Below, piece by piece: positions 1,933 through 59,428 of a stretch of 64,000 nt of DNA (positions are counted from its first letter, which is position 1; each line of letters opens with the position of its first letter). The notes under the pieces are model-generated. The model searched no databases. It saw only the letters and a program-made list of their open reading frames with translations, and was not told the DNA's origin. The position numbers were made by a program, and so were the translations under genes. Source of the stretch: Candidatus Hebobacterum abditum (GTDB taxonomy: Bacteria > Armatimonadota > Hebobacteria > Hebobacterales > Hebobacteraceae); the NCBI GenBank assembly GCA_029821875.1, contig JALGXW010000013.1, positions 1 to 64,000 of the forward strand, given 5' to 3'.

Positions 1933-2063
1933 TCGCTCGCAGCAGTCGGCCTTCCGGCGCAGGTCCCGCCAGTGCTCGCCGCTGGGTTCCTGATAACACC
2001 CGTGCCGGCGCCAGCGAGGGCTTGACCTCTGTGGACGCGGAGTCAACAGGAAAGGGATGAGCG

Positions 2064-3398: not shown

Positions 3399-3443
3399 AG
3401 CAGTGATGCGGGAGCCTGGAAGCTGCGAGCCGAGCCGACGACC

Positions 3444-4859
3444 GTGCCAGTGAGTCTCTACGGAACGCTTAGCCGGGCCGAGGTCGAGGAGATCCATGGA
3501 TCGGCACTGCGCGTCCTCGCCGAAGTAGGTGTGAAGGTGGAGTCGCGCGAGCTGCTCTCACTTCTGGCCGACTACGGCGCCCACGTCGACTACGAGGCCT
3601 GCCGGGCGCGATTCTCCCCCGCCTGGGCGGAGCAGTTCATTGCCGACTCCGACACGTACGACTGGGATAGCCATCGCCCGAGCTTCAGCTGCTTCGCGGG
3701 AATCTACGCCTGCCTCTACCTCAATCCCGAGACCGACGAATTGGAGCCCTTCACTGAGCAGACCCTCCGCGACTACATCCGGCTCGGCAGTGCTCTCCCC
3801 GAGGTCAGGTCTGTCGATCTGCTTGGGATGCCCTTCACTCCGGAGGGCATGGCTCCGGAGTACGCGCCACTCGCCGAGAAGCTGTACGGTTGGAAGTACG
3901 GCGCGTCACCGTCCGGCACAGTACAGTTCACCGGACTCTGTCCCTATCTAGAGGAGATGTACGCTCGGAGGGCCGAGGAGATCGACGAGCCGCTGGAGCG
4001 CGTCTTCGGCGCCGTCGGGTACCTAGTCAGCCCCCTACGTCTGGCGCGAGGAGAGTGCGAGCAGCTGCTGTACTTCCGGTCGCGCGGCCTCCACATGCAC
4101 ATCGGGCACATGCTCTCCATGGGCGCATCCGCGCCAGCCACGGTGGCAGGAGCCGCCGTGCTCAAGCTAGCCGAGTCGCTCTTCCTGGCCATTCTCCGCC
4201 GGGCGCTCTGGGGCGACCGCTCGCTTCGAGTGGGCGGCTTCGGCGTCGTCATGGATATGCGGAGCGCACACAGCATGGGCGGCCGGCCGGAGCAGGCCGC
4301 CATCAGCGCCGTTCTGGGCCAGCTCGCCCGCTTCTACGGCGTCGGATCGGGCACAGGCGGAGGCCTCACCGACGCGAAGGTGCCATCTGTGCAGGCCGGA
4401 ATGCAGAAGGCGATGACCTCAATGGCCGGCGTGTGCTCGTGCGGAAGCGCTGCCATGGATGCGGGCCTGCTCTCCCTCGACGAGATCTGCTCGCCAGAAC
4501 AGATGATCTACGACGCCGAACTGGCAAGCGCGATGCAGCACATGCTCCGGCCCATAGTCGTCAGCCCGGAAGCATGTGCGGTGGATGACATCAAGTCCGT
4601 CGGGCCGGGCGGCAACTTCGTGGGGTCTGACCTGACAGCGAAGCGCTTCCGCCAGGAGTTCTGGGAGCCCCGCGTGTGGGACCGGCAATCGCTTCAGGAC
4701 TGGCGAGCTGCAGGCGCCGTCGGCGAGCGCCAGAGGGCCAGGGAGCGCGTCCGATCGATCCTAGCAGCCGCGGCGCCCGAGCCGGGGTTGAGCGAGGAGT
4801 GCGAGCGCGACCTGCGGGCGACCATCGCCCGGGCCGTCGCGGCAGAGGCCGCTAGATAG
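3444..4859 (+). CDS. Trimethylamine methyltransferase (MttB) superfamily-like protein, no in-frame TAG/pyrrolysine
   Basis: Overall MttB-like pattern (EVEEIHGSALRVLAEVGVKVE..., C-terminal SLDEICSPEQMIYDAELASAMQHML). Confidence 0.8.
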   Translation: MPVSLYGTLSRAEVEEIHGSALRVLAEVGVKVESRELLSLLADYGAHVDYEACRARFSPAWAEQFIADSDTYDWDSHRPSFSCFAGIYACLYLNPETDELEPFTEQTLRDYIRLGSALPEVRSVDLLGMPFTPEGMAPEYAPLAEKLYGWKYGASPSGTVQFTGLCPYLEEMYARRAEEIDEPLERVFGAVGYLVSPLRLARGECEQLLYFRSRGLHMHIGHMLSMGASAPATVAGAAVLKLAESLFLAILRRALWGDRSLRVGGFGVVMDMRSAHSMGGRPEQAAISAVLGQLARFYGVGSGTGGGLTDAKVPSVQAGMQKAMTSMAGVCSCGSAAMDAGLLSLDEICSPEQMIYDAELASAMQHMLRPIVVSPEACAVDDIKSVGPGGNFVGSDLTAKRFRQEFWEPRVWDRQSLQDWRAAGAVGERQRARERVRSILAAAAPEPGLSEECERDLRATIARAVAAEAAR

Positions 4860-40638: not shown

Positions 40639-40793
40639 GTCTGCACTCCCACCATCCTCTTCCTCCGCGAAGCCATTCGGACATCGCAAGAGATCTGACG
40701 CGTGTCACACCCCGAGGCGACACGCCTTGGGTCCTATGTGGAGGGACGGATCAACATCCCCCACAGTGCACAACGGCCCGAACGAGCATTGTC

Positions 40794-42940: not shown

Positions 42941-43563
42941 GGACTTCCTGGACCCCCGTGAATGGCGTCACGTCAGCTGCACAGCGCTGCACCCCGGGAG
43001 GTTTACGGGAAGACGCGGTCTAATCCTCTGGGGCAGGTCCAACGGGGCGACTGCCCGACCAGACCGTCGCGGGCCACTCATCCCAGGCTCTTGGGCCCAC
43101 TGCGGGCCGACGTGAGACGGGAGTCAGGCACGTCCGTCCCGGCCCCAGCACGAGGGGCGGACATCCGTTTTGGGCCCATGATACCAATAGAGGCCATCGA
43201 CCCAGCCCCAGAATGCGCTCAAACCGGTCCTACGGCGCCCGACACAGACTCAGATGGCACCCCTCTGTGGTCCACCATCCCATCGGCGAACCGGCGCGCG
43301 CCCTTCCGGGCAGCGCCGATGAGTTATTGGACAGCACGGGCACCGATGAGTATTTGCGGACTACAGACATGCACAACTTCACCGACGGAGCGGCAGCCCG
43401 GCAGGAGCTTCTGCCCGCATGCGGAACCGGGCACTGGTCGCGGTTTCCCCGTGTCGCTGGGGTCCAGACCGCAGGAAGGAGGTGAGTTGGGCGGCAGAGC
43501 CGGCGGGATCTGCCGGCGTCAGATGTGCTGTGGTCTTGTCACACGAAGGAGGTCTGAGTGGAG

Positions 43564-44718
43564 ATGAGAGTCACGCGGAAGAAGGGCTTCACCCTGATAG
43601 AGCTGCTGGTGGTGATTGCGATCATCGGAATCCTGGCAGCGATGGTGTTTCCGGTCTTTGCGAGGGCGCGCGAGTCCGCGCGCAAGGCGGTGTGCCTGTC
43701 GAATGTAAAGAACATCGCCCTGGCCATTCAGATGTACCTGGCGGACAACAACGACTGCCTGTTCCCCAACGAGCACCGGCAAGACGTCTACGACTACATG
43801 TTCGCGGGGCCCGGGGGCGGACCTCCCGTCGACAACTGCGAGCAGTGGCCCAAGTTCGCGAAGTGGGCCAATCCCTATCTCAGAGAAGTGGTGATACTGG
43901 ACGAGTATGTCAAGAACCGCGATGTCTGGCGGTGCCCGAGCGCAAAGGTGGAGGGAGGCGCCAACTTCATCATGCGTGGGCCCGACTGGCTTGGGTACCT
44001 GCGTGCAACCGAGGGAGAGTGGGGGATCGACGCAGACAACATGGGTCCGTGGTGCATCACCGGCTGGCCGCCCGGATGGGGCGGAGAGGTCACCGACTCC
44101 ATCTTCCAGCAGAGGCTGGCCGGGACCGCGACGGGCGCGCGATGGCCGCCCACGTCAGGCGCCTCCGCTCATAAGGCGTTTGCCATGAGCATCGGAGTGC
44201 AGAACGCGTACCACGGCGAGGCCGACTACGCAGGCGGTGGAGCGGTAAACGACGCGCTGAAGCTTGTTGAGGTGGACGATCCGGTAAACTTCGTCATCGT
44301 CGCCGAAGCCGGGGTGTCCTCCTTCGAGCCCAACGCTTTCCATCTGGCAGCCTATCCGGATCTATGCTGCACCGCCTGCGCCGGGATCATCCCCTGGGGC
44401 TGGGGGTGGCCCACGCTCGACAACGGGCAGACGGTCTGCCCGAATGGCGACTACTGCCCAGAGTGCTGGGCACTGCACGCCAACTATGAGTGGGCGAAAG
44501 ATCCGAGAGCGCGGAGCGCCAGCGCGCGGCACCTGGGAGGCGACAACTTGGGCTTCCTGGACGGCCATGCGGCTTGGCTGTCGGCCGAAAGGATCCTGAC
44601 CATGGGCCGCGACGGCGACCTCAGCGGCCTGACGATGTGGTGCAACGCAGCCAGCACCCACGAGGTATACCTCCGGGACTGCGGTGATCCCCCGCCCGGG
44701 ATGGTCTTCCTCTGGTAG
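43564..44718 (+). CDS. Type II prepilin-like N-terminal cleavage/methylation protein (DUF1559-like)
   Basis: KKGFTLIELLVVIAIIGILAAMVFPVFARARESARKAVCLSNVKNIALAIQMYLADNND; C-terminal ARHLGGDNLGFLDGHAAWL. Confidence 0.92.
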   Translation: MRVTRKKGFTLIELLVVIAIIGILAAMVFPVFARARESARKAVCLSNVKNIALAIQMYLADNNDCLFPNEHRQDVYDYMFAGPGGGPPVDNCEQWPKFAKWANPYLREVVILDEYVKNRDVWRCPSAKVEGGANFIMRGPDWLGYLRATEGEWGIDADNMGPWCITGWPPGWGGEVTDSIFQQRLAGTATGARWPPTSGASAHKAFAMSIGVQNAYHGEADYAGGGAVNDALKLVEVDDPVNFVIVAEAGVSSFEPNAFHLAAYPDLCCTACAGIIPWGWGWPTLDNGQTVCPNGDYCPECWALHANYEWAKDPRARSASARHLGGDNLGFLDGHAAWLSAERILTMGRDGDLSGLTMWCNAASTHEVYLRDCGDPPPGMVFLW

Positions 44719-44811: not shown

Positions 44812-46782
44812 ATGAACCGCGCCACCCGAATCACTGCTCGCGCCATCGTGCTGGGTGCTCTGGTGAGCGGGCTGCTGGCGCTCGCCAACCCGCACACGCA
44901 TTACGTGGCGGCCACGTGGAGCATTGGCTGGGGGTCGCTGCCCATGGGCGTGGTGTTCGCGCTCTTCCTGCTCGTGGCCGCCAACGGGCTGCTCGCGCGA
45001 CTGCCAGGCAAGACGGCCTTCACCCGGGGCGAGCTGCTGGCAGTCTACGGCGCCGCCATCATCTCCTATCCGTTGATCAGGATGTACCTGCCCTACCTGG
45101 CGGGCATGCTCTCCTATGCCTTCTACCGCGCCAGCCCGGAGAATGAGTGGGAGAATCTGATATGGCCTCACATCCCCTCCTGGTCCCGCCTGTCGAGCCC
45201 CGATGCCGTCAACTGGTTCTGGCAGGGCCTGTCGAGAGGTCAGACCGTGCCGTGGAGCGACTGGGCTGGGCCCATGCTGGCCTGGGGGCTGTTCACGGCC
45301 GCCGCGATGGCGGCCATGTTCTGTCTGGCCGCGCTGATGAGCAGGGATTGGATCGACAGGCAGCGGCTGACGTTCCCACTGGTTGAGGTGCCGCTCGCCC
45401 TCGTGGGCGACGGGCCCACCCCGACACCGGGGCGGAGCATCTTGCGCAACCGCGTCTTCTGGATCGGCTTTGCCGTGCCGTCCCTCATCTCGCTCTTGCA
45501 CTGGCTGAGCAGGATCTTCCCCGCGGTCCCTGACCCCACGCTAGAGTATCTCGTAGGACGCCACCTGGCGGGCATGGGCCTGCCCTGGAGTGTCCTCGGC
45601 GAGATGCGGATCCGCCTCTACTTCGCCGTCATCGGGATCGCCTGCCTAATCCCCGGCGAGGTGTCGCTCAGCATCTGGCTCTTCTACGTGCTCTACTGCG
45701 CGGCGCTGGTTGTGCTGGCCGGCTTCGGCATCACTGAATCAGCGAGTTCCGTCGCGGGCTTCAATCCTCGATCCGTCGTCGGCTTCGCCGAGGCCGGGGG
45801 CTTCGCGGTTCTGGCTGCGACGGCGCTGTGGCAGTCGCGAGGCAGGCTCAAGAGTGCCGTCAACGGCCTCCTTGGAGGGCGGGCCGCGGGACCCGACCCC
45901 TCCGCGCCTCTCAGCGGCCGCGCGGCCTTGCTTGGATTTCTTGCGGCCAATGCGTTCATGCTTTGGTGGGCGTTGCGAGCGGGTATGTCGTGGTGGAGCT
46001 TCGCCATGTGGGCGGTGCTGTTCTATGTGGTCCTCATCGGTTGCTCCCGACTGGTGGCGGCCGCGGGCGTGATGCGAGCGGATGCGGCCGCAGCCGTCTA
46101 CCCGTTCCCACGGGAGGTCATCCTCCGCACGGTCGGGGCGTTGCCAATCGGACCGCCGTCGCTCACCATCATGACCTATCTCTCGTTCGCCTACACGGGC
46201 AATGTGGAGAACTCGGCCATGCCCCAGATGATGAACAGCTTCAAGCTGGTCCGCTCTGAACGCCTGGCCGGCACCGCGTTCACCAGGGCCGCCGTCGTCG
46301 TGTCTCTCGTCGTCTTGGTCGTGGGGAGTGTCGGGCTGCTCCAGGTGGCCTACAGGCACGGCGCAAGCTCTCTGCAGTGCTGGCCGCTGACCGGCGCTGC
46401 CACTTGCACCTTCCGCCAACTCGATTCCAGCCTCCATTCTCCCGAGCTGCCCAGCAACTGGCTCCGCGGCGCCATCGCGGGCGGCGCCGGTTTCATGCTT
46501 CTGCTCGTGTGGCTCAGCAGCCGGTTCGTCTGGTGGCCAGTGAGTCCTGTCGGGTTCGTCATAGCCAGCGCCTTCTTCACCAATTACGGCCTCTGGTTCA
46601 ACACCTTCATCGGATGGCTGCTAGTCACGTTGGTCCGCCGCTACGGCGGCCTCACTGTCTACCGGGCATTGCGCCCCGCGTTCCTGGGGCTGGTACTGGG
46701 GGAGTTCCTAACGCGGAGCGCGCTGGCCGTGTTCTCTCTCCTCATCGGGCTCGAAGTGCCTGACCCGTTCGCGCTCGCCTAG
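44812..46782 (+). CDS. Large polytopic membrane protein, DUF6785/DUF6784-like, copy 1
   Basis: Many TM segments; motifs shared with 52288 and 54428 genes (RQRLTFPLVEVPLALVGD, MMNSFKLVRSERL, SSRFVWWPVSPVGFVIA). Confidence 0.85.
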   Translation: MNRATRITARAIVLGALVSGLLALANPHTHYVAATWSIGWGSLPMGVVFALFLLVAANGLLARLPGKTAFTRGELLAVYGAAIISYPLIRMYLPYLAGMLSYAFYRASPENEWENLIWPHIPSWSRLSSPDAVNWFWQGLSRGQTVPWSDWAGPMLAWGLFTAAAMAAMFCLAALMSRDWIDRQRLTFPLVEVPLALVGDGPTPTPGRSILRNRVFWIGFAVPSLISLLHWLSRIFPAVPDPTLEYLVGRHLAGMGLPWSVLGEMRIRLYFAVIGIACLIPGEVSLSIWLFYVLYCAALVVLAGFGITESASSVAGFNPRSVVGFAEAGGFAVLAATALWQSRGRLKSAVNGLLGGRAAGPDPSAPLSGRAALLGFLAANAFMLWWALRAGMSWWSFAMWAVLFYVVLIGCSRLVAAAGVMRADAAAAVYPFPREVILRTVGALPIGPPSLTIMTYLSFAYTGNVENSAMPQMMNSFKLVRSERLAGTAFTRAAVVVSLVVLVVGSVGLLQVAYRHGASSLQCWPLTGAATCTFRQLDSSLHSPELPSNWLRGAIAGGAGFMLLLVWLSSRFVWWPVSPVGFVIASAFFTNYGLWFNTFIGWLLVTLVRRYGGLTVYRALRPAFLGLVLGEFLTRSALAVFSLLIGLEVPDPFALA

Positions 46783-46881
46783 GACCCGAGTATTGCCGCT
46801 CGTGTGCGGGCCTACATGAAACGAGACGCCACTAGCTCGGCCACTAGCTCGAGTCCACCCAGCGATGGTGCAGCGTTGGGG

Positions 46882-46960
46882 TAGGCGCGGAGCCAGGGCG
46901 GGCCCCCAATGATCTACATCATGCTCGCCACCGGCGGCGCCAACATCGGCTGGCTGTTTG
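46882..46960 (+). pseudogene. Relic of a fourth DUF6785-like paralogue
   Basis: ggcgcggagccagggcgggcccccaatgatctacatcatgctcgccaccggcggcgcc aligns in frame with 54717-54775 (LSQGELLTIYIMLAIGGVIVG). Confidence 0.65.
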
Positions 46961-47160
46961 CTCATCCGCGGCCGCAGTCCCTCGGAGGCGCGCTCACTCC
47001 TCCGTTCAGAGCGAACCAGGTGACTAGAGGTGTACGGCCTCTGTGGCCGGAACAGTGTCGGCTGGCGCAGTGTATGTGGCCGAGCAGGCCTTGCGAGGCG
47101 GTGCTTCACTGACAGTCTCGGGGGCCTCGCCGCGCCGGCAAGTGCGACGAGGAGCCAAGC

Positions 47161-48357
47161 GTGTCTTCTAGAGAGCGGGTGCTGGAAGCGATTGATGGGA
47201 CACCGGGTGCCCCGGTGCCGTGCTGCTTCATGATGTTCCGTGCGCTGAGCGACAGATGCCAGGATGAGTATGAATTCGCGACCCGGCAGATGGAGCTGGG
47301 GCTCGACACGCGGGTTCGCCTCGACGATCTGCCGGTCCGTTTCTCACCAGAGGTCAGCGTCCATGAGTCGGTCACCGCAGGTGACCCTCCCGTCGTCACT
47401 CGGGTGTACGAGACGCCGGCCGGCAGCCTGGCTGTCAGCGTCAAGCAGATCGAGGGGTGGCCCTTCGGGGATCATCTGCCGCTCTTCAGTGATTTCATCA
47501 TCCCGCGCGCCGTTCAGTTTCCTGTCTCCGCCCCGGAGCACTTGCCAGCCCTGCGCCATCTCTTGACCCCACCGGGGGACGACGATGTCCGCGCCTTCCT
47601 CGCGGAGGGCAACAGGCGCAAGCGCTTCGCGGACGACCGCCGCCTGCTGCTTGCCGGGGGCTGGCGAGGAGAGCGCTCCGTGCCGGGCGAGGACGAGAAC
47701 CTGGTGGGCACTAACTTCGGTACGGTATCGGTCGTTGACACCTTGATGTGGCTCTGCGGCGGGACTCAGCCACTGCTCTGGGCGTACGACGAGCCCGACT
47801 TCCTCAGGGAACTGATAGGCATCCTCGAGGAGTGGAATCGTAGTCGTCTCGAGGTCCACCTGGAGGCCGGGGTAGACATCGTGTTCCGCCGAGCGTGGTA
47901 TGAGGGCACTGACTTCTGGTCTCCGCCCTTGTACCGGGAGCTCATCCTTCCGACGGTGCGCCGAGACGTGGAGCTCGCGCACGAGGCGGGGGCTCGCTAT
48001 GCGTACATCATCACCACCGGCATGATGCCGGTGGCCGACCTGATTCTGGAAGCCGGCGTTGACGCTGTCGTCGGCATAGACCCAGGCCAGGGCAAGGGGA
48101 CAACTCTCCAGGATGTGCGCGACTCGCTGGGCGGGAAGGTCGGTCTCTGGGGGGGTGTCAGTGGGCCGCTCGCAGTAGAGGAGGGAACGGAGGGAGAGGT
48201 GAGAGCGGCCGTCGAGGAAGCAGTCTCAGTCCTGGGCGATACGGGGCGCTTCATACTCTCTCCTGTGGACAACGTTCGCGCCGACACGGAACGGTCGTGG
48301 CGCAACGTACGGGTGTTCGTTGATACGTGGCGGTCCCTCACCCGCGCCTCTTCATGA
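47161..48357 (+). CDS. Uroporphyrinogen decarboxylase family (UroD/MtaA-like methyltransferase) protein
   Basis: RERVLEAIDGTPGAPVPCCF start; GVDIVFRRAWYEG, LGGKVGLWGGVSGP, FILSPVDNVRADTERSWRNVRVFVD. Confidence 0.88.
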   Translation: MSSRERVLEAIDGTPGAPVPCCFMMFRALSDRCQDEYEFATRQMELGLDTRVRLDDLPVRFSPEVSVHESVTAGDPPVVTRVYETPAGSLAVSVKQIEGWPFGDHLPLFSDFIIPRAVQFPVSAPEHLPALRHLLTPPGDDDVRAFLAEGNRRKRFADDRRLLLAGGWRGERSVPGEDENLVGTNFGTVSVVDTLMWLCGGTQPLLWAYDEPDFLRELIGILEEWNRSRLEVHLEAGVDIVFRRAWYEGTDFWSPPLYRELILPTVRRDVELAHEAGARYAYIITTGMMPVADLILEAGVDAVVGIDPGQGKGTTLQDVRDSLGGKVGLWGGVSGPLAVEEGTEGEVRAAVEEAVSVLGDTGRFILSPVDNVRADTERSWRNVRVFVDTWRSLTRASS

Positions 48358-48369
48358 CTGGAGACCGGA

Positions 48370-49347
48370 ATGGCGGCTATGGCGCATGGGCGCGAGTCGG
48401 GCCTGCTGCTTGGACTTGACGGCGGCAGCACGAAGACGGCGGGAGTGATCATCACTCCAGACGGCCGCGTGCTTGGACAGGTACGCGGTCCCGCCTCCGC
48501 CATCGTCGGTCCCCCCAATGCGGAGGCATCCTCGGTTCTCGGTTCGATCGTAGACTCGCTCTGCTCTCAGGCGGATGCATCCCTGGATGACATCGAATCA
48601 TGTGGTGTCGGCCTCAGCGGCATTGACTTCGATGATGAGCTATCTCTGCAGCAGGAGGGGATCGCCGCCGCACTGGGCATCCCAAGAGAGCGCATCATCC
48701 TCGTCAACGATGCTATCGTCGCGCTGTGGGGCGCGACGGCGAAGCCGGCGGCGACCCTCTTCCAGCATGGCTCGGGCTTCACCGGAGCCTATCGGGCCCA
48801 GCATGGAGAGGAGGTCCTCTTCGACCATCTCGGGGTGGCCAGCACCTTCGACATGCGCCGCGCGCTGATCGCGCTCGTCGCCCGAATGATAAACGGCATG
48901 GCGGAGCCGACGCCACTCAAGGACAAGGCACTCGCCCACTTCGGCATAGCAGACGAGCAGGAATACTGCGAGGCCGTCTATCGCCAGTTCATCCCCTCTG
49001 AGCGCACGGTGAACACGCCTCCTCTCATATTCGCCGCCTGGCTCGAAGGAGACCCGGCCGCGACCGGCCTGGTCGAAGACGCAGTGCGCGATTATGCTCT
49101 TGCCGCGGGGGCAATGATCGAAGCGACAGGGCATCGAAGCCCTGATGTCACCCTAGGAGGAGGCGTCATCGCCCAAGCGCCTGAGCAGTTCTGGCGATCG
49201 CTCGCCGAGGCGATCCAGGAGTCGCACCCACTGGTCACTGTCAAACCGCCAGACCTGGCGCCGGAGTTCGGCGGCGCGGTCATGGCCGGATACCACATCG
49301 GCCTGGATCCCGCGCAGCTCTTCCAGCAGCTTCGAGTCAACACATAG
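48370..49347 (+). CDS. BadF/BadG/BcrA/BcrD ATPase-family (N-acetylglucosamine kinase-like) protein
   Basis: LLLGLDGGSTKTAGVIITPDGRVLGQVRGPASA; VNDAIVALWGAT; VTLGGGVIAQAPEQF. Confidence 0.9.
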   Translation: MAAMAHGRESGLLLGLDGGSTKTAGVIITPDGRVLGQVRGPASAIVGPPNAEASSVLGSIVDSLCSQADASLDDIESCGVGLSGIDFDDELSLQQEGIAAALGIPRERIILVNDAIVALWGATAKPAATLFQHGSGFTGAYRAQHGEEVLFDHLGVASTFDMRRALIALVARMINGMAEPTPLKDKALAHFGIADEQEYCEAVYRQFIPSERTVNTPPLIFAAWLEGDPAATGLVEDAVRDYALAAGAMIEATGHRSPDVTLGGGVIAQAPEQFWRSLAEAIQESHPLVTVKPPDLAPEFGGAVMAGYHIGLDPAQLFQQLRVNT

Positions 49348-49367
49348 AACGCGCGACAGGGGGACAC

Positions 49368-50639
49368 ATGAGCCGATCCCTATCAGTGTGTGTTGTTGGC
49401 GCAGGTAGCTCATACACTCCCGAGCTGGTCGAGGGGCTGCTCCAACAAGACCCGGCACTTCTGCCTGTCGGGGAGCTGCGCCTCACCGACATCGATGCCG
49501 AGCGCCTCTCCATCATGGCCGGCTTCAGCGAGCGCGCCGTTCGCCACGCTGGACGCGATGTGACTGTTGCCAGCGACAAGCGTCTCGCACCGATGATCGA
49601 AGGCGCCGACTTCGTCATCACACAGATCCGTGTGGGGGGGATGAAGGCCAGGCATCTGGATGAGAGCATTCCCCTGAAGTACGGGATCATCGGGCAGGAG
49701 ACGACCGGCCCCGGCGGGATGTTCAAGGCGCTACGGACGATCCCCCCAATGATCGAGATCGGGAACACAGTCGCCTCCGCTGCGCCCGATGCGTATATCC
49801 TGAACTATGCCAACCCCAGTGGCATCGTCTCCGAAGCAGTGTCGAAGCACACGAAGGCGAATATCATCGGCCTGTGCTCTGGCATCCCCGGGATGCAGGC
49901 AGAGATCGAAGGCTCATTCTCTCCTCGCTACCCCGATCTGCGCGTCTACACCGTGGGGCTCAATCACTTCGGTCACATTCATCGCGTACTCTCGGGAGAC
50001 AGGGATGTCACGGGGGAGGTGATGGAAGCACTCGCGAAGACGGAGGAGGAGAGGGGCAACCAGGGCGGGGAGCGCACTATCCGGCTGCTGCAAGCGTATC
50101 CCATAGGCTACGTTGACTACTTCTACCATCGCGCCCGCATGGTCCAAGCGTACCAGTCCCACTCGGGGACGCGAGCCGAGGAGATCGAGGCCATCGAGCG
50201 GGAGATTCTCGCTGAAGCAGCGAGGCCAGACGTTGTCGAGAAGCCGAAGGCGCTGAGTCGGCGTGGTGGCGGCGGCTATGCGAACATCACCTTCGCTGTC
50301 ATGAAGGCGATCGTGAATGACACGGGGGAGGAGCTGACGGCCAACGTCCCCAACAGGGGGAGCGTGGACGGGATCGAGGATGACGCAGTTGTGGAGGTCG
50401 TATGTCGCGTTGACCGAAATGGCGCTCACCCACTGCCCGTGGGTCAGATCCCGCTCGCGTTTCGCGGTGTGATGCAGGCGCTGAAGGCATACGAAACACT
50501 GACCGTAGAGGCGGCGGTGCAACGGAGCAGGCGGCTGGCGGTGCTCGCGCTGCTGAACCATCCCCTCATGGGGGACGTGGATGTGATAGAGCCGTTGCTG
50601 GATGAAATGCTCGCAGCGCACGGGCTCGACTTCACATAA
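49368..50639 (+). CDS. Glycoside hydrolase family 4 protein, second copy
   Basis: VCVVGAGSSYTPELVEGLL; GLCSGIPGMQ; VGLNHFGHIHRV. Confidence 0.93.
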   Translation: MSRSLSVCVVGAGSSYTPELVEGLLQQDPALLPVGELRLTDIDAERLSIMAGFSERAVRHAGRDVTVASDKRLAPMIEGADFVITQIRVGGMKARHLDESIPLKYGIIGQETTGPGGMFKALRTIPPMIEIGNTVASAAPDAYILNYANPSGIVSEAVSKHTKANIIGLCSGIPGMQAEIEGSFSPRYPDLRVYTVGLNHFGHIHRVLSGDRDVTGEVMEALAKTEEERGNQGGERTIRLLQAYPIGYVDYFYHRARMVQAYQSHSGTRAEEIEAIEREILAEAARPDVVEKPKALSRRGGGGYANITFAVMKAIVNDTGEELTANVPNRGSVDGIEDDAVVEVVCRVDRNGAHPLPVGQIPLAFRGVMQALKAYETLTVEAAVQRSRRLAVLALLNHPLMGDVDVIEPLLDEMLAAHGLDFT

Positions 50640-50642
50640 GGC

Positions 50643-52130
50643 ATGGGGCCACGCGGGCGCCCTGTTGGGGAGCAAGCCGGTATGGGAAAGGGAGGCAGCT
50701 TGCGTGCTCGTGCACTGAAGCTGACGCGTCAACCGCTGTTTCAGCCATCAGAGCTTGAGGCGATAGAGGAGGCCGCTCTACGTATCCTCGAAGAGGTGGG
50801 GGTCGAGGTCAGCCACCCGGAGCTTGCGGCGCGCGCCGCCAGCGAGGGCTTCGAGTTCTCGCAGACGCGCATCCGGCTGGCACGGCGCAAGGTGGCCGAG
50901 TTTCTGGCGGAAGCGCGAGGAGGCGCACGGGGGCAGCAAAGCAGCGCGACCTCCGATGACGGCTGCCGCGACCTCGTTGCATATATAAGCCCCTATCCAC
51001 AGAGCGTCCATGACCCGGAGACAGACGAGATCGTCCCGTTCACCGCCGCGCGGCTGGCCGAGGCGACGAAGCTGGTGGGAGCAGTGGCCGACCGTGGGAT
51101 CGTCCCCCAGGTGCCGGGCTGCCCGGTAGACGTACCGGCTCCGCTGCAAGTCATCCTCCAGTATCGAATCGCGGCCGAGAACCTGCCCGGAGGTGGTCCA
51201 CCCGTCGATCCCAAGGCCCTGGCCTCAATGCCCTACATCATGGAGATGGCCGAGGTCCTGGGCCGGCCCATTCGCAGCCTCCCTGTGTACGTCTTCAGCC
51301 CTCTCACACTGGCCGGCGAATCGCTGTCCGGAGTCATGGCGTACGAGTCAGGCCTGGATGCCGTCGGTGTCAGCTCGATGCCAGCGGCGGGAAGCACAGC
51401 CCCGGTGCGGCCGAGCGAAGCGCTCGCCCTCGCGGCCGCGGAGGTGATTGGCTCGGCCCTGATCCTGCGTGAGTGCATCGAGCCGCCGGTCCACTGGGGC
51501 ATCGGAGCGTACCCGTTCGACATGAGGGGTATGGCGATGAGCTTCGGCTCTCCGGAAGCCTTGCTCTTCGAGATGGCCTCGTGTGAAGTGGACGCCTACT
51601 TCCACGGCCATCCCTGGCACCCCGCTGTGGGGAACATCCATACCCTCGCCAAGCTGCCTGGCCCCCAGGCTGCGGCGGAGAAGGCCACTCTCATGACACT
51701 CGGCGCTCTGTGGGGAGCAACAGAGTTCCACTGCGCCGGGGTCCTCAGCCTCGACGAGATCTTCAGCCCGGTTCAGCTCCTGGCCGATCTCGAGGTCAAG
51801 GATCACGTGCAACGGCTGGTGCGGGGACTGGAGACCGGCTGCGATGCGGATGCCCTCGTCGCAGATGTGCGGGAGGGACTGGAGGGGGGGTTCATGGGGA
51901 TCGAGCGCACCCTGGACCGATATCGCGAACTGTACTGGCATCCACAGTTGTTCGAGCGCCGGTTCCTGGGACCATGGCGGAGCGCGTCGAGCCCGAGCTT
52001 TGGCCAGCTAGCACGTGAGATGTGTCGGGAGTTGCTGGGACGGTACTGCTACGAACCACCAGCGGGCATCAGGTCCGAGATCGAGCGTATCTACCGCCGC
52101 GCGGAGCGAGGACTCGCCGCCGCAACATGA
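50643..52130 (+). CDS. Trimethylamine methyltransferase (MttB) superfamily-like protein, second copy
   Basis: EAIEEAALRILEEVGVEVSHPELAARAASEGFEF; GVLSLDEIFSPVQLLADLEVKDHVQRLVRG; no in-frame TAG; start could be 50643 or 50682. Confidence 0.83.
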   Translation: MGPRGRPVGEQAGMGKGGSLRARALKLTRQPLFQPSELEAIEEAALRILEEVGVEVSHPELAARAASEGFEFSQTRIRLARRKVAEFLAEARGGARGQQSSATSDDGCRDLVAYISPYPQSVHDPETDEIVPFTAARLAEATKLVGAVADRGIVPQVPGCPVDVPAPLQVILQYRIAAENLPGGGPPVDPKALASMPYIMEMAEVLGRPIRSLPVYVFSPLTLAGESLSGVMAYESGLDAVGVSSMPAAGSTAPVRPSEALALAAAEVIGSALILRECIEPPVHWGIGAYPFDMRGMAMSFGSPEALLFEMASCEVDAYFHGHPWHPAVGNIHTLAKLPGPQAAAEKATLMTLGALWGATEFHCAGVLSLDEIFSPVQLLADLEVKDHVQRLVRGLETGCDADALVADVREGLEGGFMGIERTLDRYRELYWHPQLFERRFLGPWRSASSPSFGQLAREMCRELLGRYCYEPPAGIRSEIERIYRRAERGLAAAT

Positions 52131-52287
52131 AGATCGACACACAGCCGCCCAGGAGTTGTAGCACTCCGCTGCTGGCCGTCGGCCGAGGGAGCGACGGCGC
52201 AATCAGTCGGTACTTTTGCCCATCCTTCTCTTGGTCCTCCTGCGTGCCGAGGGGCAGAGGTGTAGTGCGGGCCCTGGGGTGTAGCTG

Positions 52288-54294
52288 ATGCTCGGCGGCT
52301 CGTCGCCAAGCCAGAAACGGGAGTCGCTAACGTCCGTGCCGACGCCCGGCAAGCCAACGTCGAACGACAGCAGGGCCGGGGAGCGCCGTTCCCGCGGCGC
52401 AACGTGGCGGGCCATCGCAATCGCTGTCCTTCTCATGCCCCTCCAATCGTGGTGGATCGTGCAGATGGAGGCCATCCGCTACAACACTTGGCCCACGATG
52501 TATTCTCTGCCGTTGCACACCGTCTTCATCGTACTCCTGCTGGTAGGCATCAATGCACTTGTCAGGCGCCGAGCACCTGGATGGGCCCTGGGCCCCGGTG
52601 AGTTGCTGACGATCTACATCATGCTCGCCATTTCTGGCGTGATCGCTGGGTATGGCCTTATTCAGGCTCTCGTAGGGTGGATTATCGCACCCATCGAACG
52701 AGTGACAGTCGGCTACGACCGGCAACTGCTCTTCAGGGACGTCCTTCCGGCCTGGCTGGTGGTCACGGACGAGCAGACCCTGACTCATTTCTACGATGGC
52801 GAAAGCACTCTCTTTGCTGCGAAGCACCTACTCGACTGGGGAAGGCCTGCCTTGGCATGGAGCGCCTTTATGTTGGCGTTCTTCGGGGCCATGCTGTCCC
52901 TGAACGCGCTGCTGCGCCGCCGCTGGATTGAGGAAGAGCGGCTCACCTTTCCCCTCGTGCAGGTCCCGGTGGCCATGGTGGAGCCATCTGGCGCACTGTT
53001 CCGCAGTCGGCTGGTCTGGGTCGGCTTCGCCATGGCTGTTGTCCTCGGCTCTGTGAACGGTCTTCATACGCTCTTCCCAGCTATACCCAGTCTCCAGCCC
53101 GACCTGAGCTCGCTCAACGAGGACCTGGGACGGCGCTGGGACTGCTTCCTCAAGTCCGAAGGCGCCTTCTGGCCGCCCTACCTATGGGCTGTCGGCGTCG
53201 GCTTTCTTATGCCGGTAGACATCGCATTCTCCTACTGGTTCTTCTTCTGGGCCGTGAAGCTGGAGGAATTGGTGACCGTGCTGTGGGGGTGGGATATTGC
53301 GCCCGACGCTCCGTTCACCCATCAGCAGTCTGCCAGCGCCCTGTTGGCCATTGGGCTCTTCGTCCTGTGGTCGGGAAGGCGTCACTTGGCCAGGGCGCTC
53401 CGGCTGGCGTTCCGTCCCAGCTTGGGCCCGCGCGACGGGGAGGAACCTCTGCGCTACAGGTGGGCTGTTGGTTTGCTCGCGTTGTCTGTTGCTGGCATGG
53501 CTGTGTTCGTAGGACTTGCGGGCGCTCCGGCATGGATCATCTTCGTGTACCTGGGTCTGTATCTAGTCGCCAGCCTCGCGCTGTCGCGGCTTAGGGCGGA
53601 GCTAGGCGCGCCGCAGACGGAGGTCTATGCGGCTGGCCCCCACACGCTTCTCACTCAGCTCGTCACGCCAGCATCGTTCCCATTCCGCGGGCTCGCGATA
53701 TTGACCCTGTTCGGATGGACGTCCAAGGCCTACGGGATGGATGCGACGCCGCTCCAGATGGAGGGCTTCAAGATGGCGCAGGCTGCGCGCGTACGCGTGC
53801 GCGGCCTGGTCGCTGCGATGTTCGTTGCAGTTGTCGCCGGCCTCGTCATCGCCTACGTTGCGCTGCTGACGCCGTTGTACAGCCTGGGGGCAGACAGCGC
53901 CAAGGTCGGCTTCGAGGGTCCCACCCAAGCCTATGCCTCGCTGATCACGTGGACCTCCGGCGTGGCGCCTGCTCCTCTCCAGCGAGGGTCCGCCATGGGC
54001 GTGGCCTTCGTCTTCACGTTCTTCCTGTATGCTATGCGCAGTCGCTTCTTTTGGTGGCCGTTTCATCCGATGGGATATGTCCTGGCGCCGATGTGGTTCA
54101 CACATCATCTCTGGATGTCAGTGTTCGTTGCCTGGACCATCAAAGCACTGATCCTACGGTACGGCGGCTTGCGTGCCTACACCAAGGCACTTCCCTTCTT
54201 CCTGGGCCTCATTCTTGGTGACTGCGTCATTGGCAGCTTGTGGGCGCTTGCCAACCTCATACTCAAGATTCCGACTTACAGCGTTTGGATATAG
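52288..54294 (+). CDS. Large polytopic membrane protein, DUF6785/DUF6784-like, copy 2
   Basis: GPGELLTIYIMLAISGVIAGYGLIQ; RRRWIEEERLTFPLVQVPVAMVEPSG; MRSRFFWWPFHPMGYVLAPMWFTHHLW. Confidence 0.88.
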   Translation: MLGGSSPSQKRESLTSVPTPGKPTSNDSRAGERRSRGATWRAIAIAVLLMPLQSWWIVQMEAIRYNTWPTMYSLPLHTVFIVLLLVGINALVRRRAPGWALGPGELLTIYIMLAISGVIAGYGLIQALVGWIIAPIERVTVGYDRQLLFRDVLPAWLVVTDEQTLTHFYDGESTLFAAKHLLDWGRPALAWSAFMLAFFGAMLSLNALLRRRWIEEERLTFPLVQVPVAMVEPSGALFRSRLVWVGFAMAVVLGSVNGLHTLFPAIPSLQPDLSSLNEDLGRRWDCFLKSEGAFWPPYLWAVGVGFLMPVDIAFSYWFFFWAVKLEELVTVLWGWDIAPDAPFTHQQSASALLAIGLFVLWSGRRHLARALRLAFRPSLGPRDGEEPLRYRWAVGLLALSVAGMAVFVGLAGAPAWIIFVYLGLYLVASLALSRLRAELGAPQTEVYAAGPHTLLTQLVTPASFPFRGLAILTLFGWTSKAYGMDATPLQMEGFKMAQAARVRVRGLVAAMFVAVVAGLVIAYVALLTPLYSLGADSAKVGFEGPTQAYASLITWTSGVAPAPLQRGSAMGVAFVFTFFLYAMRSRFFWWPFHPMGYVLAPMWFTHHLWMSVFVAWTIKALILRYGGLRAYTKALPFFLGLILGDCVIGSLWALANLILKIPTYSVWI

Positions 54295-54427
54295 CGACAC
54301 TCGACGAGCTCCTAGCGCGAAGCGGGCCGGCCGCTGTTTCCCTCACCGTTGGTCTGAGTGGAGGTGATCGCTTTACGCTCGCCTAAGAGAAGCATCTCCG
54401 TCTTTCGCCGGCCGCGCAGGGCGCCGC

Positions 54428-56428
54428 ATGGCACCAGACGACACTACGCCGACCGATCATAGCGAAGACATGACCTCGGGTGCACAGGGGGGCAGGGATC
54501 CATCAGCGGCCCGCGACCGCGGCCAGGTGGTCACCTGGCGGGCCATCGCGATCGCGCTGCTCATCATGCCGTTTCAGTCAACCTGGATCGTCCACATGGA
54601 GGCCATTCGCAACTACACCTGGCCGAGCATGCTGGCGCTGCCACTCGAGACGGTCTTTGTCCTGCTCCTCCTGACGGCCGCCAGCGCGGCGATCAAGCGC
54701 CGGCGGCCGCGGTGGGCGCTGAGCCAGGGCGAGCTGCTGACGATCTACATCATGCTCGCCATCGGTGGCGTCATCGTCGGCTTCGGGCTGCTCGAGCAGG
54801 TCATATCGTGGGCGATCGCGCCCGTGGGCCGAGCGACCAAGGAGAACCAGTGGGACCAGCTCTTCTGGCAGCACCTTCCGAGCTGGCTGGTGCTCACCAA
54901 TGTGGACAGCCTGGAGGCGCTCTTCCGCGGCGACACGACTCTGCTCACAAGACGGCACGTCGCGAGCTGGATGCCCGTTGTCCTCTCTTGGGGCGGGTTC
55001 TTCCTCGCTTTCTTCGCCGTCATGATGGCCATGAACACTCTTCTGCGGCGGCGCTGGATCGAAGAGGAACGCCTCACCTTCCCGCTGGTCCAGCTCCCGC
55101 TTGCCGTCACGGAGCCGACCGGGCGGATCTTCCGGAATTGGCTCCTCTGGGCCGGGTTCGGGCTGGCCTTTGTGCTTGGCACGCTGAACGGTCTTCACGC
55201 CCTCTTCCCCGCGATGCCGAGCTTTCAGCCCGACCTCGGCAGCCTGAACGCTCACCTCGGCCGGCGCTGGAGCTGCTTCGCAAAGCATGGGGGGCCGTTC
55301 TGGCCCCCCTATCCATGGGCGATCGGCGTGGCCGTGTTCATGCCCCTGGAGGTATCGTTCTCCTACTGGTTCTTCTTCTGGGTGGTCAAGCTCGAAGAGC
55401 TGGCGACCGTGCTCACCGGCTGGGACATCGCGCCCGACGCGCCATTCGTCTACCAGCAATCGGCGGCCGCACTGCTGGCCATCGGCGTCTATATTGTATG
55501 GGCGGCCCGCAAGCATTTTTGGTCGGTAGTCGCCGGCGCGATCCACCCCAGCCGGGACCTCGGCGATCGCCGCGAGCCTATCCCGTACCGCGCGGCCATC
55601 GCTCTGTTCGTCGCCGCGATTGGATTCCTCTGCATCTTCGTCTGGCGGGCGGGCATGCCGGTCTGGCTGGTCCCCATCTTCCTCTCGCTCTACCTGAGCG
55701 CGAGCCTCGCGCTGTCGAGGATCCCCGCCGAGCTGGGCGCGCCGGCTAACGAGATCCACGACGCCGGGCCCCACCAGATCCTCACCCAGATTGCGACGCC
55801 GGCTTCCTTCCCCGTCCGCGGGCTCGTGGCGCTGACACTGCTCGGCTGGACCTCGCGGAGCTATGGCGTCGATCCCACACCTCATCAGATGGGCGGCTTC
55901 AAGATGGCCGAGCGCACGGGCCTCCGCACGCGGGGGCTGGCCGGCGCGATGTTCGTCGCCGCCGTCGCCGGGCTTGTCTACGGCTACTTGGCTCTCCTCC
56001 TGCCGCTCTACCAGCTCGGCGCGGACAGCAGCAAGCTTCACTTCAACACCAGTGGCCAGTACGCGTTCGGCGAGTTGGAGACCTGGCTGACGGGAGTCGC
56101 GCCGGCCACCGGCTACCGGAGCACGGCGATGGGCTTCGGCTTCCTCTTCACCTTGTTCCTCTACGCGATGCGCAGCCGCTTTCTCTGGTGGCCATTCCAC
56201 CCGATGGGGTACCTGATGGCGCCAACCTGGTTCACCCATCACCTCTGGCTGCCGGTCTTCCTCGCCTGGCTCGCGAAGCTGCTGCTGCTGCGGTACGGGG
56301 GCCTGAGGACCTATGCGGCCGCGCTGCCGTTCTTCTTCGGGCTCATCATCGGCGATTGCGTGATCGGAAGTCTGTGGGCCCTGGCAAACCTGGTCTTCGG
56401 CGCACCCACCTTCGCTGTCTGGATGTGA
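54428..56428 (+). CDS. Large polytopic membrane protein, DUF6785/DUF6784-like, copy 3
   Basis: Close paralogue of the 52288 gene along its length (RRRWIEEERLTFPLVQLPLAVTEPTG; MRSRFLWWPFHPMGYLMAPTWFTHHLW). Confidence 0.88.
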   Translation: MAPDDTTPTDHSEDMTSGAQGGRDPSAARDRGQVVTWRAIAIALLIMPFQSTWIVHMEAIRNYTWPSMLALPLETVFVLLLLTAASAAIKRRRPRWALSQGELLTIYIMLAIGGVIVGFGLLEQVISWAIAPVGRATKENQWDQLFWQHLPSWLVLTNVDSLEALFRGDTTLLTRRHVASWMPVVLSWGGFFLAFFAVMMAMNTLLRRRWIEEERLTFPLVQLPLAVTEPTGRIFRNWLLWAGFGLAFVLGTLNGLHALFPAMPSFQPDLGSLNAHLGRRWSCFAKHGGPFWPPYPWAIGVAVFMPLEVSFSYWFFFWVVKLEELATVLTGWDIAPDAPFVYQQSAAALLAIGVYIVWAARKHFWSVVAGAIHPSRDLGDRREPIPYRAAIALFVAAIGFLCIFVWRAGMPVWLVPIFLSLYLSASLALSRIPAELGAPANEIHDAGPHQILTQIATPASFPVRGLVALTLLGWTSRSYGVDPTPHQMGGFKMAERTGLRTRGLAGAMFVAAVAGLVYGYLALLLPLYQLGADSSKLHFNTSGQYAFGELETWLTGVAPATGYRSTAMGFGFLFTLFLYAMRSRFLWWPFHPMGYLMAPTWFTHHLWLPVFLAWLAKLLLLRYGGLRTYAAALPFFFGLIIGDCVIGSLWALANLVFGAPTFAVWM

Positions 56429-56548: not shown

Positions 56549-59257
56549 CTAGACCCCTAGCCCAAACGCCCTCGCCACGTACACTGCCATCTGATCTCGG
56601 GTGACGACGATTTCGGGGTGGTAGAGGCCGTCGAGGTAGCCGGCCACCACTCCGTTCTCGACACAGTACTCGACGTGGGTGTAGGCCCAGTGATTGGTCG
56701 GCACGTCGGGGAAGTTGCGCGGGTCGGCCGGCACGTAGTCGGCGAGAGCCGCCTCTCCGGTGGGCGCCACCAGGGCGCGGGCGACGTAGACGGCCATCTG
56801 GTCCCGGGTCACTTCATACTCGGGGTGGTAGCTGCCATCGTCGTAGCCGGCGACGACGTTCTGAGACACCGCGTACTCGACGTAGTCGAGCGCCCAATGC
56901 TCGTCGCCAACATCTGGGAAGGTCGGCGTGTCGGTGAAGTCCGGCACGTACTCGTCTCCGCCGGCCAGGGCGCGGGAGATGTAGACGGCCATCTGGGCTC
57001 GATCGACCGGCGCGTCAGGCTGGTAGGAGCCATCCACATAGCCGCTCACGACGCCGGCCTCTACGCACGCTGATATCTCGTCGTATGCCCAATCGTCTGC
57101 TGCGACATCCAGGAAGAACTCGAGAATCAACACAGGCTTCGTCTCGCTGTCGGAGCCATAGGCGTTGCTGGCAGTCAGAGTCACATCGTAGCTACCGGCG
57201 CTCAGATACACATGGGATGCGTGCTGCTCGTCGCTGGTTCCCCCGTCGCCGAAGTCCCACAGCCAACTCGTCGGCTCACTCAGCGAGAGGTCAATGAAGT
57301 TGATCGGATATCCCACACGACCTATAGGAGGGGAGACGCTGAAGGATGCTGTGGGCGGCCTGGGCGGCCCCCCGACTACGACGAGGTGGACCACCTGGTC
57401 ATTGCCCGTGTCAGCCACCCAACAGGACCCATCTGCGGGGTTCACGGCCACGGCCTTGGGCTGATGGAACCCACCTCCCCGCCATAGCTCCGTCCCGTTC
57501 TCTGACAGGTGCACGACCTGGTTGTTGAGAGTATCAGCCACCCAGCAGGTGCCGTCCCCGGCGTCCGCCGATACGGAGTGCGGGAACTTGAATCCTCCTA
57601 CCCTCAAGAGGCCCGCGCCGTTCTCGGCCAGGTGCACCACCTCGTCGTTTAGGCTATCGGCCACCCAACACGAACCATCCGTCGAGTTCACGGACAGCGA
57701 GAGGGGATACGTGAGGCAGGCCTTGCGCCAGAGCTCCGTGCCGTCTGCCGCCAGGTGCACGACCTCGTTGCCTCCGGAGTCAACTACCCAGCAGGATCCA
57801 TCTTGGACGTTCACAGAGACGCACTCGGGCGTGCTGAAGTCCTGTACGAATGTCACCTTCCAGGCTTCCACAATGTGGTGATGATCCACGAGCCAATGAC
57901 GTTCCTCAATGCGCGCCACCCGGCCCCCATACGTGTCGGCAGCCCAGCAGTACCAGCGCACTAGCGTCCCCCCGTACTGGTAAGGGTCGTCCTCGTAGGT
58001 CGGGTTAGGGTCAGCGGAGACGGACCGGGGGTACACGAACTCGTCCGAACTCATGCTGCTGACGTTGGGGACGTCGAACAGCAGGTGCTCCACCTCGTTC
58101 ATCCCGCTGTTGGCAAACCAGCAAGAGCCGTCTGTGGGGTTCACCGAGACCGAGCGGATCTCGCTGCGGCTGTCAGTACGCCAGGCCTTAATCTCGCTGG
58201 TGCCGTCCTCCGCCACCCGCACGACGCGGCTATGCCCGGTGTCAGCAACCCAGCAGGAGCCGTCTTTGGGGTTCACCGAAAGGGCCTCAGGTTGGAGGAA
58301 GCCCCATGGCCTCTCATAGCCATCGACCAGTACAAGGACCGGTTGCTCGTACACCACCGTCTCCTCCAGATGGACGAGGTGGCTGTTACCGGTGTCAGCT
58401 ACCCACAAGGACCCGTCTGTCGGGTTGACCGAGACAGATGACAGCTCGCCGAAGCACCTGCGCAACGCGAGGATCTCCCAGTAGCAGTCTTGCCGGAGGA
58501 GCTGATTGCCCTGTGCATCCAGATGCACTAAGTGGTTGTTCTCCGTGTCAGCCACCCAGCACGAGCCGTCCGTTGGATCGACCGATATGGACTGGGGGCG
58601 GGAGAAGCACGGTCCACACCAGAGCACGCTGCCGTCTTCTGCCAGATGCACGAGGTAGTTGTTGCCGGTGTCGGCCACCCAGCAGGAGCCATCGAGGGGG
58701 TTCGCCGCCACTGATCCCGGTTCATTGAGGCACCTGTCGACCGGAGGTACCACAGCGGGATCGTCGTAGCAGCCGATCCGCAGGAGTTCGGTGCCGTCCG
58801 CCGCCAGGTGCACTACCTGGTCACTCCCGGTGTCAGCCACCCAGCAGGAGCCATCCGTCGGGTTCACGGCGACGGACCGGGGGCGGTCGAAGCCCTCCAG
58901 TCTCACGATTTCCACGCCGTCTGCACCAAGGTGTACTACCTGGTTGTTGCCGGTGTCAGCCACCCAGCAGGTGCCATCGACCGGGTTCGCGGTGACAGAC
59001 TGAGGGCTCCAGAATCCATCAGTCTGACTGAGCACACTGCCGTCCGCGTCCACGTGCATCACACTGGAGCCGGTCGCCGCCCAGCAGGAACCGTCTGAAG
59101 GGCTCGCTGAGACCGACCACGGCCGCCCGAAGGGACTGCGCCAGGCCTCCGCGACCACCTCGGCTCCGGCCAATGGCAGCCAGATAGCCGCCAGATACGC
59201 CAGCATGCTTGCCAGAGTCATCAATGCGCAGCGGTTCGACAGTCTCTTCCCGTTCAT
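56549..59257 (-). CDS. Secreted NHL-like beta-propeller + PKD + three SLH domains
   Basis: Over ten tandem (NPTDGSCWVADTGNNQVVHL...) repeats; PKD WLWDFGDGGTSDEQHASHVYLSAGSYDVTLTASN; SLH DVAADDWAYDEISACVEAGVVSGY...; start likely 59257. Confidence 0.9.
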   Translation of the reverse strand: MNGKRLSNRCALMTLASMLAYLAAIWLPLAGAEVVAEAWRSPFGRPWSVSASPSDGSCWAATGSSVMHVDADGSVLSQTDGFWSPQSVTANPVDGTCWVADTGNNQVVHLGADGVEIVRLEGFDRPRSVAVNPTDGSCWVADTGSDQVVHLAADGTELLRIGCYDDPAVVPPVDRCLNEPGSVAANPLDGSCWVADTGNNYLVHLAEDGSVLWCGPCFSRPQSISVDPTDGSCWVADTENNHLVHLDAQGNQLLRQDCYWEILALRRCFGELSSVSVNPTDGSLWVADTGNSHLVHLEETVVYEQPVLVLVDGYERPWGFLQPEALSVNPKDGSCWVADTGHSRVVRVAEDGTSEIKAWRTDSRSEIRSVSVNPTDGSCWFANSGMNEVEHLLFDVPNVSSMSSDEFVYPRSVSADPNPTYEDDPYQYGGTLVRWYCWAADTYGGRVARIEERHWLVDHHHIVEAWKVTFVQDFSTPECVSVNVQDGSCWVVDSGGNEVVHLAADGTELWRKACLTYPLSLSVNSTDGSCWVADSLNDEVVHLAENGAGLLRVGGFKFPHSVSADAGDGTCWVADTLNNQVVHLSENGTELWRGGGFHQPKAVAVNPADGSCWVADTGNDQVVHLVVVGGPPRPPTASFSVSPPIGRVGYPINFIDLSLSEPTSWLWDFGDGGTSDEQHASHVYLSAGSYDVTLTASNAYGSDSETKPVLILEFFLDVAADDWAYDEISACVEAGVVSGYVDGSYQPDAPVDRAQMAVYISRALAGGDEYVPDFTDTPTFPDVGDEHWALDYVEYAVSQNVVAGYDDGSYHPEYEVTRDQMAVYVARALVAPTGEAALADYVPADPRNFPDVPTNHWAYTHVEYCVENGVVAGYLDGLYHPEIVVTRDQMAVYVARAFGLGV

Positions 59258-59428
59258 CTCGCCCTGCCTCTCTCTACCCATGTGACGCCCGCCGACGGCC
59301 CCCTCACGAATACGCCACCGGCCGCCCGAGTTGGCATCGTGACACCCCCGCCCACGGCCCTGCGGGCGGACCGGGGACCACCTCGTGCAGCCACCTCGCA
59401 CACGGTATCCGCCAGCAGGTCAGATAGG

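Follow-up and report, generated by a model that had tools for sequence, protein, structure and literature searches.

We analysed a window of 64,000 nucleotides of Candidatus Hebobacterum abditum (contig JALGXW010000013.1, positions 1 to 64,000) and found that seven genes at positions 44812-56428, all on the plus strand, form a real, conserved and uncharacterised locus of catabolic type. These genes encode, in order: a DUF6785/DUF6784 membrane protein (protein 1, 44812-46782), a protein of the UroD superfamily without the zinc motif of MtaA (47161-48357), a BadF/NagK-like sugar kinase of the ASKHA type (48370-49347), a GH4 glycosidase predicted to depend on NAD and Mn (49368-50639), a non-pyrrolysine methyltransferase-like protein of the MttB superfamily (50643-52130) and two further DUF6785/DUF6784 membrane proteins (protein 2, 52288-54294, and its paralogue protein 3, 60%, 54428-56428). 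An earlier interpretation of this DNA from its letters alone (hereafter the sequence-only reading) had described seven same-strand genes of these families, and all seven open reading frames (ORFs) are present and score above the Pfam gathering cut-offs for their families. The short gaps which it gave (48357/48370, 49347/49368 and 50639/50643) are exact. The UroD, BadF, GH4 and MttB genes make up a tight operon core, from which the DUF6785 genes are set apart by gaps of 133-378 bp. A promoter scan gave no signal above that of shuffled sequences; terminator-like sites were more frequent than in the shuffles but were mostly intragenic and were therefore not used.

A further gene on the plus strand (43558-44718) ends 93 bp before the first DUF6785 gene. 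It encodes a DUF1559/SBP_bac_10 protein with an N-terminal methylation motif like that of type II pseudopilins (Pfam N_methyl and SBP_bac_10), and may act at the surface together with the DUF6785 transporter. As it is syntenic, at 81% identity, in a related genome described below, this gene should be counted as part of the locus and the start of the locus moved to 43558.

The gene set recurs within the family (four genomes) as collinear orthologues of about 80% amino acid identity, in agreement with the sequence-only reading, for which a lack of recurrence would have counted against a catabolic system. The source genome (G000) is a 4.31-Mb assembly of 103 contigs which is 95% complete. In a different genus of the same family (locus L122, contig C296 of genome G003) we found genes for DUF1559, DUF6785, an APH-type kinase, FAD_oxidored, UroD, BadF, GH4, MttB and DUF6785, in that order. 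Their proteins share 79-84% identity with those of the window, including 82% for the first DUF6785 protein and 84% for the second, which follows MttB. A short contig from another genome of the same genus (L123) holds UroD, a BadF orthologue (92% identical), GH4 and MttB, while in genome G006 (L121) a fragment of the window-type GH4 gene is accompanied by another GH4 gene, MttB and a DUF6785 gene which, placed after MttB, is 86% identical to protein 2.

GH4 and MttB genes were also found together more widely in the family. Across eight genomes of the family, a GH4 match lay within 2 kb of an MttB match in 13 of 48 cases, compared to 0.88 expected (nominal binomial p = 3e−12), and these pairs come from four or more MttB clades, defined at 55% identity, although orthologues among them are not independent. 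The counts are approximate, as several of the matches are incomplete genes on short contigs. Other MttB genes of the source genome lie near GH20-, GH106- and GH123-like, GFO/IDH and DegT genes. A chance neighbourhood of unrelated genes might be imagined, as these metagenome-assembled genomes (MAGs) are fragmented and the source genome has more than one copy of each of DUF6785, URO-D, GH4 and MTTB, but the collinear orthologues in another genus and the strong GH4-MttB linkage across clades contradict it and leave it highly improbable.

The DUF6785/6784 family is large in this organism, with 44 matches in the source genome in a profile search. When the DUF6785 profile was compared to the sequences of the PDB it returned nothing meaningful, and a search by fold was therefore used. 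AlphaFold2 gave models of protein 1 with a predicted local distance difference test score (pLDDT) of 84.2 and a predicted template modelling (pTM) score of 0.88, and of protein 2 with a pLDDT of 86.8 and a pTM of 0.90; the two proteins share 27% identity, and it should be noted that their models share alignment sequences and are not fully independent. The best PDB match found by Foldseek was in both cases the barley transporter Yellow Stripe 1 (YS1, 7wst), with a probability of 1.0: E = 1.3e−8 and template modelling (TM) scores of 0.66/0.71 for protein 1, and E = 8e−9 and TM scores of 0.62/0.68 for protein 2. Each model had exactly two PDB matches below an E-value of 0.001, both of them to YS1. 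The likeness to this OPT/YSL transporter extends over nearly the whole chain, but sequence identity is only 12-13%, and the OPT profile PF03169 gave no match at E = 0.01 on the three DUF6785 proteins of the window. On some DUF6785 ORFs of the genome and its relatives the same profile gave weak matches, the better ones at 22-34 bits (cut-off 25.8), and the six loci with such matches which were checked do hold DUF6785 proteins. Judged by predicted fold, DUF6785/6784 is very probably a divergent family of OPT-superfamily transporters, from which a role in transport, and its direction, would follow. A transport role for these polytopic proteins, in line with the import proposed by the sequence-only reading, is supported by the predicted fold. 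DUF6785 and DUF6784 were not mentioned in the literature searched, and the assignment of an OPT fold gives the DUF6785 family a testable role.

The only significant structural match is to a transporter of Fe(III)-phytosiderophores, and DUF6785 might accordingly carry a metal chelate or a peptide as YS1 does, with the locus serving to open a glycosylated, metallophore-like compound; the idea of a methylated sugar would then be wrong. We regard this as improbable, as 12-13% identity is uninformative on substrate and a general class of importers better fits a family with 44 matches in one genome and very diverse neighbours, including sugar enzymes.

In the regions compared, DUF1559-type genes make up 12 of the 67 genes within two positions of DUF6785 but only 1 of the 298 genes that lie five or more positions away. 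The p-value of 7e−9 is nominal, since regions were selected for their DUF6785, MttB and UroD genes and paralogues lying close together are not independent. Other neighbours of DUF6785 are diverse and include many sugar enzymes, found once each. We considered that the whole gene set travels with DUF6785 and dropped this, because GH4, MttB and BadF are almost absent beside its named relatives. The family occurs in MAGs of Armatimonadota, Poribacteria, Hydrogenedentes and Planctomycetota, and its best named matches, all below 40% identity, come partly from Armatimonadota, partly from Poribacteria and partly from MAGs without classification. In a named Armatimonadetes MAG (L156, 3502-7107) an MttB-like gene and a DUF6785 gene are divergently oriented; no other of the 79 named DUF6785 loci has such a pair.

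The kinase of the locus scored 65.5 bits against PF01869 (BcrAD_BadFG; cut-off 31.5) and only 36.4 bits against the NagK equivalog model (cut-off 370), and its closest PDB entry is an N-acetylmuramic acid/N-acetylglucosamine kinase (8zo3, E = 8e−15). Strong orthologues were found in 8 of the 292 genomes of the phylum. In most contigs which show the neighbourhood, a GH4 gene of the same type lies close to them; these contigs include some from genomes of other families, where the other partners were not seen nearby. As the kinase-GH4 pair is conserved in this way, the locus probably has as its old core a kinase which supplies a phospho-glycosidase. More distant BadF-GH4 pairs occur in contig C52 of the source genome and in genomes G012 and G057, and in genome G291 a Glucosamine_iso gene lies between BadF and GH4. 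There is a weak hint of an amino-sugar substrate.

The GH4 protein has both domains of the family (PF02056 and PF11975) and gave full-length phmmer matches to 5c3m, 1s6y and 1up7 (BglT), with E-values of 1e−81 to 1e−65, placing it nearest to the 6-phospho-beta-glucosidases. As in these enzymes, the metal-binding Cys and His motifs are kept (GLCSGIP and GLNHFG). The metal-cysteine motif itself reads CSGI, whereas known 6-phospho-beta-glucosidases have CN[VI]P; the locus also differs in having a kinase, with no phosphotransferase system seen there. Literature searches on GH4 motifs, and on GH4 together with corrinoid enzymes, found nothing. Phosphorylation of a glycoside and cleavage by GH4 are likely at this locus, judging from the encoded families. 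A glycoside as the class of substrate, close to the methylated sugar or aminoglycoside conjugate of the sequence-only reading, is sensible given GH4 and a NagK-like kinase whose pairing is conserved in distant genomes.

The MttB-like protein scored 131 bits against PF06253 (cut-off 25) and matched the methyltransferases MttB (7xcl, E = 1e−23) and MtgB (2qne/9yce, E = 3e−19) over the barrel. It is not of the pyrrolysine type, as there is no in-frame stop codon and TIGR02369 gave 123.8 bits compared to a cut-off of 525. A histidine stands at the column of Pyl334 and another at that of Tyr364, a combination which is conserved in four orthologues only; MtgB has a histidine at or beside the Tyr364 column. 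A search of the MttB pocket for a catalytic signature found none that is conserved outside the orthologue group. The members of the superfamily to which PMC12155760 assigns a substrate are corrinoid methyltransferases acting on free quaternary amines, trimethylamine or phosphocholine. In Eubacterium limosum a kinase and an MttB homologue, MthK and MthB, act as a pair in the demethylation of phosphocholine, and one corrinoid protein, MtqC, serves three MttB homologues (PMC12155760). The locus resembles the MtgB, MtpB, MtcB, MtyB and MthB systems in having an MttB-superfamily protein, a corrinoid protein with its activator in the genome and a sink for one-carbon (C1) units, and it shares with the MthB system the presence of a kinase (PMC12155760). 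It differs from all of them in that the corrinoid gene lies elsewhere, the partners are a glycosidase and OPT-fold transporters, and the pocket residues have diverged.

The UroD-like protein belongs to PF01208 (44.4 bits), and its closest solved relative by family profile is a methylcobalamin:coenzyme M methyltransferase (4ay7, E = 1.4e−7). The sequence-only reading had assigned it to the MtaA type, which our results do not support: the zinc ligands of the His-x-Cys ... Cys motif are absent, these positions reading IITTG in the window protein and its orthologues, and the protein scored 26.8 bits against the MtaA/CmuA model TIGR01463, far below the cut-off of 235.4. That reading had itself named the loss of zinc-site residues as damaging. 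The loss is found here but is not fatal alone, as CdmB is a corrinoid methyltransferase of the UroD fold without zinc (PMC13222342), and a role in methyl transfer is for this reason still possible. Like MtaA, CmuA and CdmB, the protein is a member of the URO-D family, and it may be a zinc-free corrinoid methyltransferase or a repurposed TIM barrel. The family is strongly expanded in the source genome (29 matches), where some copies, other than that of the window, keep an HSCG- or HTCG-like motif.

As the sequence-only reading noted, no corrinoid protein is encoded in the window. The search of the whole genome which it called for found a single PF02607 (B12-binding_2) protein, a stand-alone corrinoid protein of the MtbC type (PF02607 and PF02310) on contig C57. 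It directly follows a gene for an activator of the RACo type with all RACo domains; the two genes lie at 7929-10469 of L078, and no methyltransferase gene was seen beside this pair. The assembly, at the completeness given above, could lack a second corrinoid protein. A sink for methyl groups exists in the genome in the form of Wood-Ljungdahl genes: contig C40 carries an acetyl-CoA synthase cluster (L259, 7381-15817) with genes for AcsE, AcsD, AcsV, AcsC and AcsB (ACS/CODH alpha-beta), and a second methyl-tetrahydrofolate:corrinoid methyltransferase is encoded on C15. Classes bearing the Wood-Ljungdahl pathway have been described in Armatimonadota (PMC10290634).

Taken together, we favour a glycoside locus with import, phosphorylation and GH4 cleavage, to which we add corrinoid-dependent demethylation by inference; for this whole picture we estimate a probability of about 0.45. 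The DUF1559 pilin-like surface protein and the OPT-fold DUF6785 transporters would import the compound, which is probably a glycoside and, we infer, a methylated one. The BadF/NagK-like kinase would then phosphorylate the sugar, and GH4 would cleave the phosphorylated glycoside by its NAD- and Mn-dependent redox-elimination chemistry. Demethylation is plausible: the MttB-like protein, perhaps with the UroD-like one as well, would pass a methyl group from the substrate or aglycone to the stand-alone corrinoid protein of C57, which the neighbouring RACo-like activator would keep active. The acceptor of the methyl group could be either the acetyl-CoA synthase cluster, together with a methyl-tetrahydrofolate:corrinoid methyltransferase, or a split methionine synthase.

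Several findings weigh against this picture. Neither the Pyl334 nor the Tyr364 column is constrained among the MttB paralogues, whose reactions may thus differ. The UroD-like protein, besides lacking the His-x-Cys ... Cys site, has an invariant motif of its own around RxWYxxxDFWxP. With no corrinoid gene in the locus, the one PF02607 protein of this genome would have to serve 10 MttB-like genes and the 29 URO-D matches. Among the 79 named DUF6785 loci, MttB was found in one, UroD in two and GH4 in none, so that this transporter family is not tied to methyl transfer. Contig C64 encodes a stand-alone homocysteine methyltransferase, and a split methionine synthase could therefore account for the corrinoid protein and activator of C57.

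An alternative is sugar catabolism without methyl transfer, in which the MttB-like and UroD-like TIM barrels have been repurposed for decarboxylation, isomerisation or C-O cleavage and an ordinary glycoside is degraded. The unconserved active-site columns, the loss of zinc ligands alongside a private motif, the single corrinoid protein for nearly 40 MttB-like and UroD genes and the glycan enzymes beside the paralogues would all fit it. It is nevertheless somewhat doubtful, since the MttB-superfamily members with a substrate assigned in PMC12155760 are corrinoid methyltransferases, UroD-fold corrinoid methyltransferases without zinc exist (PMC13222342), and the genome encodes a corrinoid protein, an activator and a C1 sink. 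Alternatively, the locus may scavenge methyl groups rather than serve catabolism, with the one taken off by the MttB-like protein feeding homocysteine through a split methionine synthase which uses the same corrinoid protein. The stand-alone homocysteine methyltransferase and the stand-alone corrinoid protein with its activator are consistent with this, as is Ruegeria pomeroyi, in which MtgC is common to glycine betaine demethylation and methionine synthesis (PMC12478193). This is unlikely, as ten MttB-like genes, several of them beside glycosidases, exceed the need of methionine synthesis and the acetyl-CoA synthase cluster is the larger sink.

Should the link between GH4 and MttB in the favoured glycoside-demethylation picture prove catalytic, glycosides would be added to the substrates of the MttB superfamily and glycan catabolism would come to include corrinoid demethylation. 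A wider proposal, which we put forward tentatively and consider rather unlikely in full, is that this is a new type of glycan-utilisation locus in an uncultured lineage with the acetyl-CoA pathway, in which OPT-fold DUF6785 importers and DUF1559 pilin-like proteins would import methylated glycosides and several loci would each pair GH4 with its own MttB-type demethylase, with one corrinoid protein in common.

The window also holds a second related cluster on the plus strand, comprising an FAD_oxidored gene (7-1932), a second GH4 gene with a CSGV motif (2064-3398) and, adjoining it, a second MttB-like gene (3444-4859). The GH4 and MttB-like genes each have an 85% orthologue in L134, where the MttB-like gene is again beside GH4, and the FAD_oxidored gene has orthologues near MttB in L135 and L139. 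The latter, on contig C230 of G003, reads GH4-MttB-DUF6785-GH4-MttB-DUF6785-FAD_oxidored; several of its members are orthologous to the window genes at 7-4859 and 54428-56428, the orthologue of the third DUF6785 gene (83%) being interleaved with those of the second cluster.

At two other loci, one in the source genome (L075, G000:C102:29000-48999) and one in genome G001 (L124), MttB-like, GH20-like and DUF6785 genes adjoin a conserved run of hydrogenase type, consisting of Proton_antipo_M, HycI, 4Fe-4S, flavin reductase and molybdopterin oxidoreductase genes. On the minus strand of the window, two large proteins of 950 amino acids are encoded at 56549-59401 and 37837-40689, the first of them with NHL, PKD and SLH domains.

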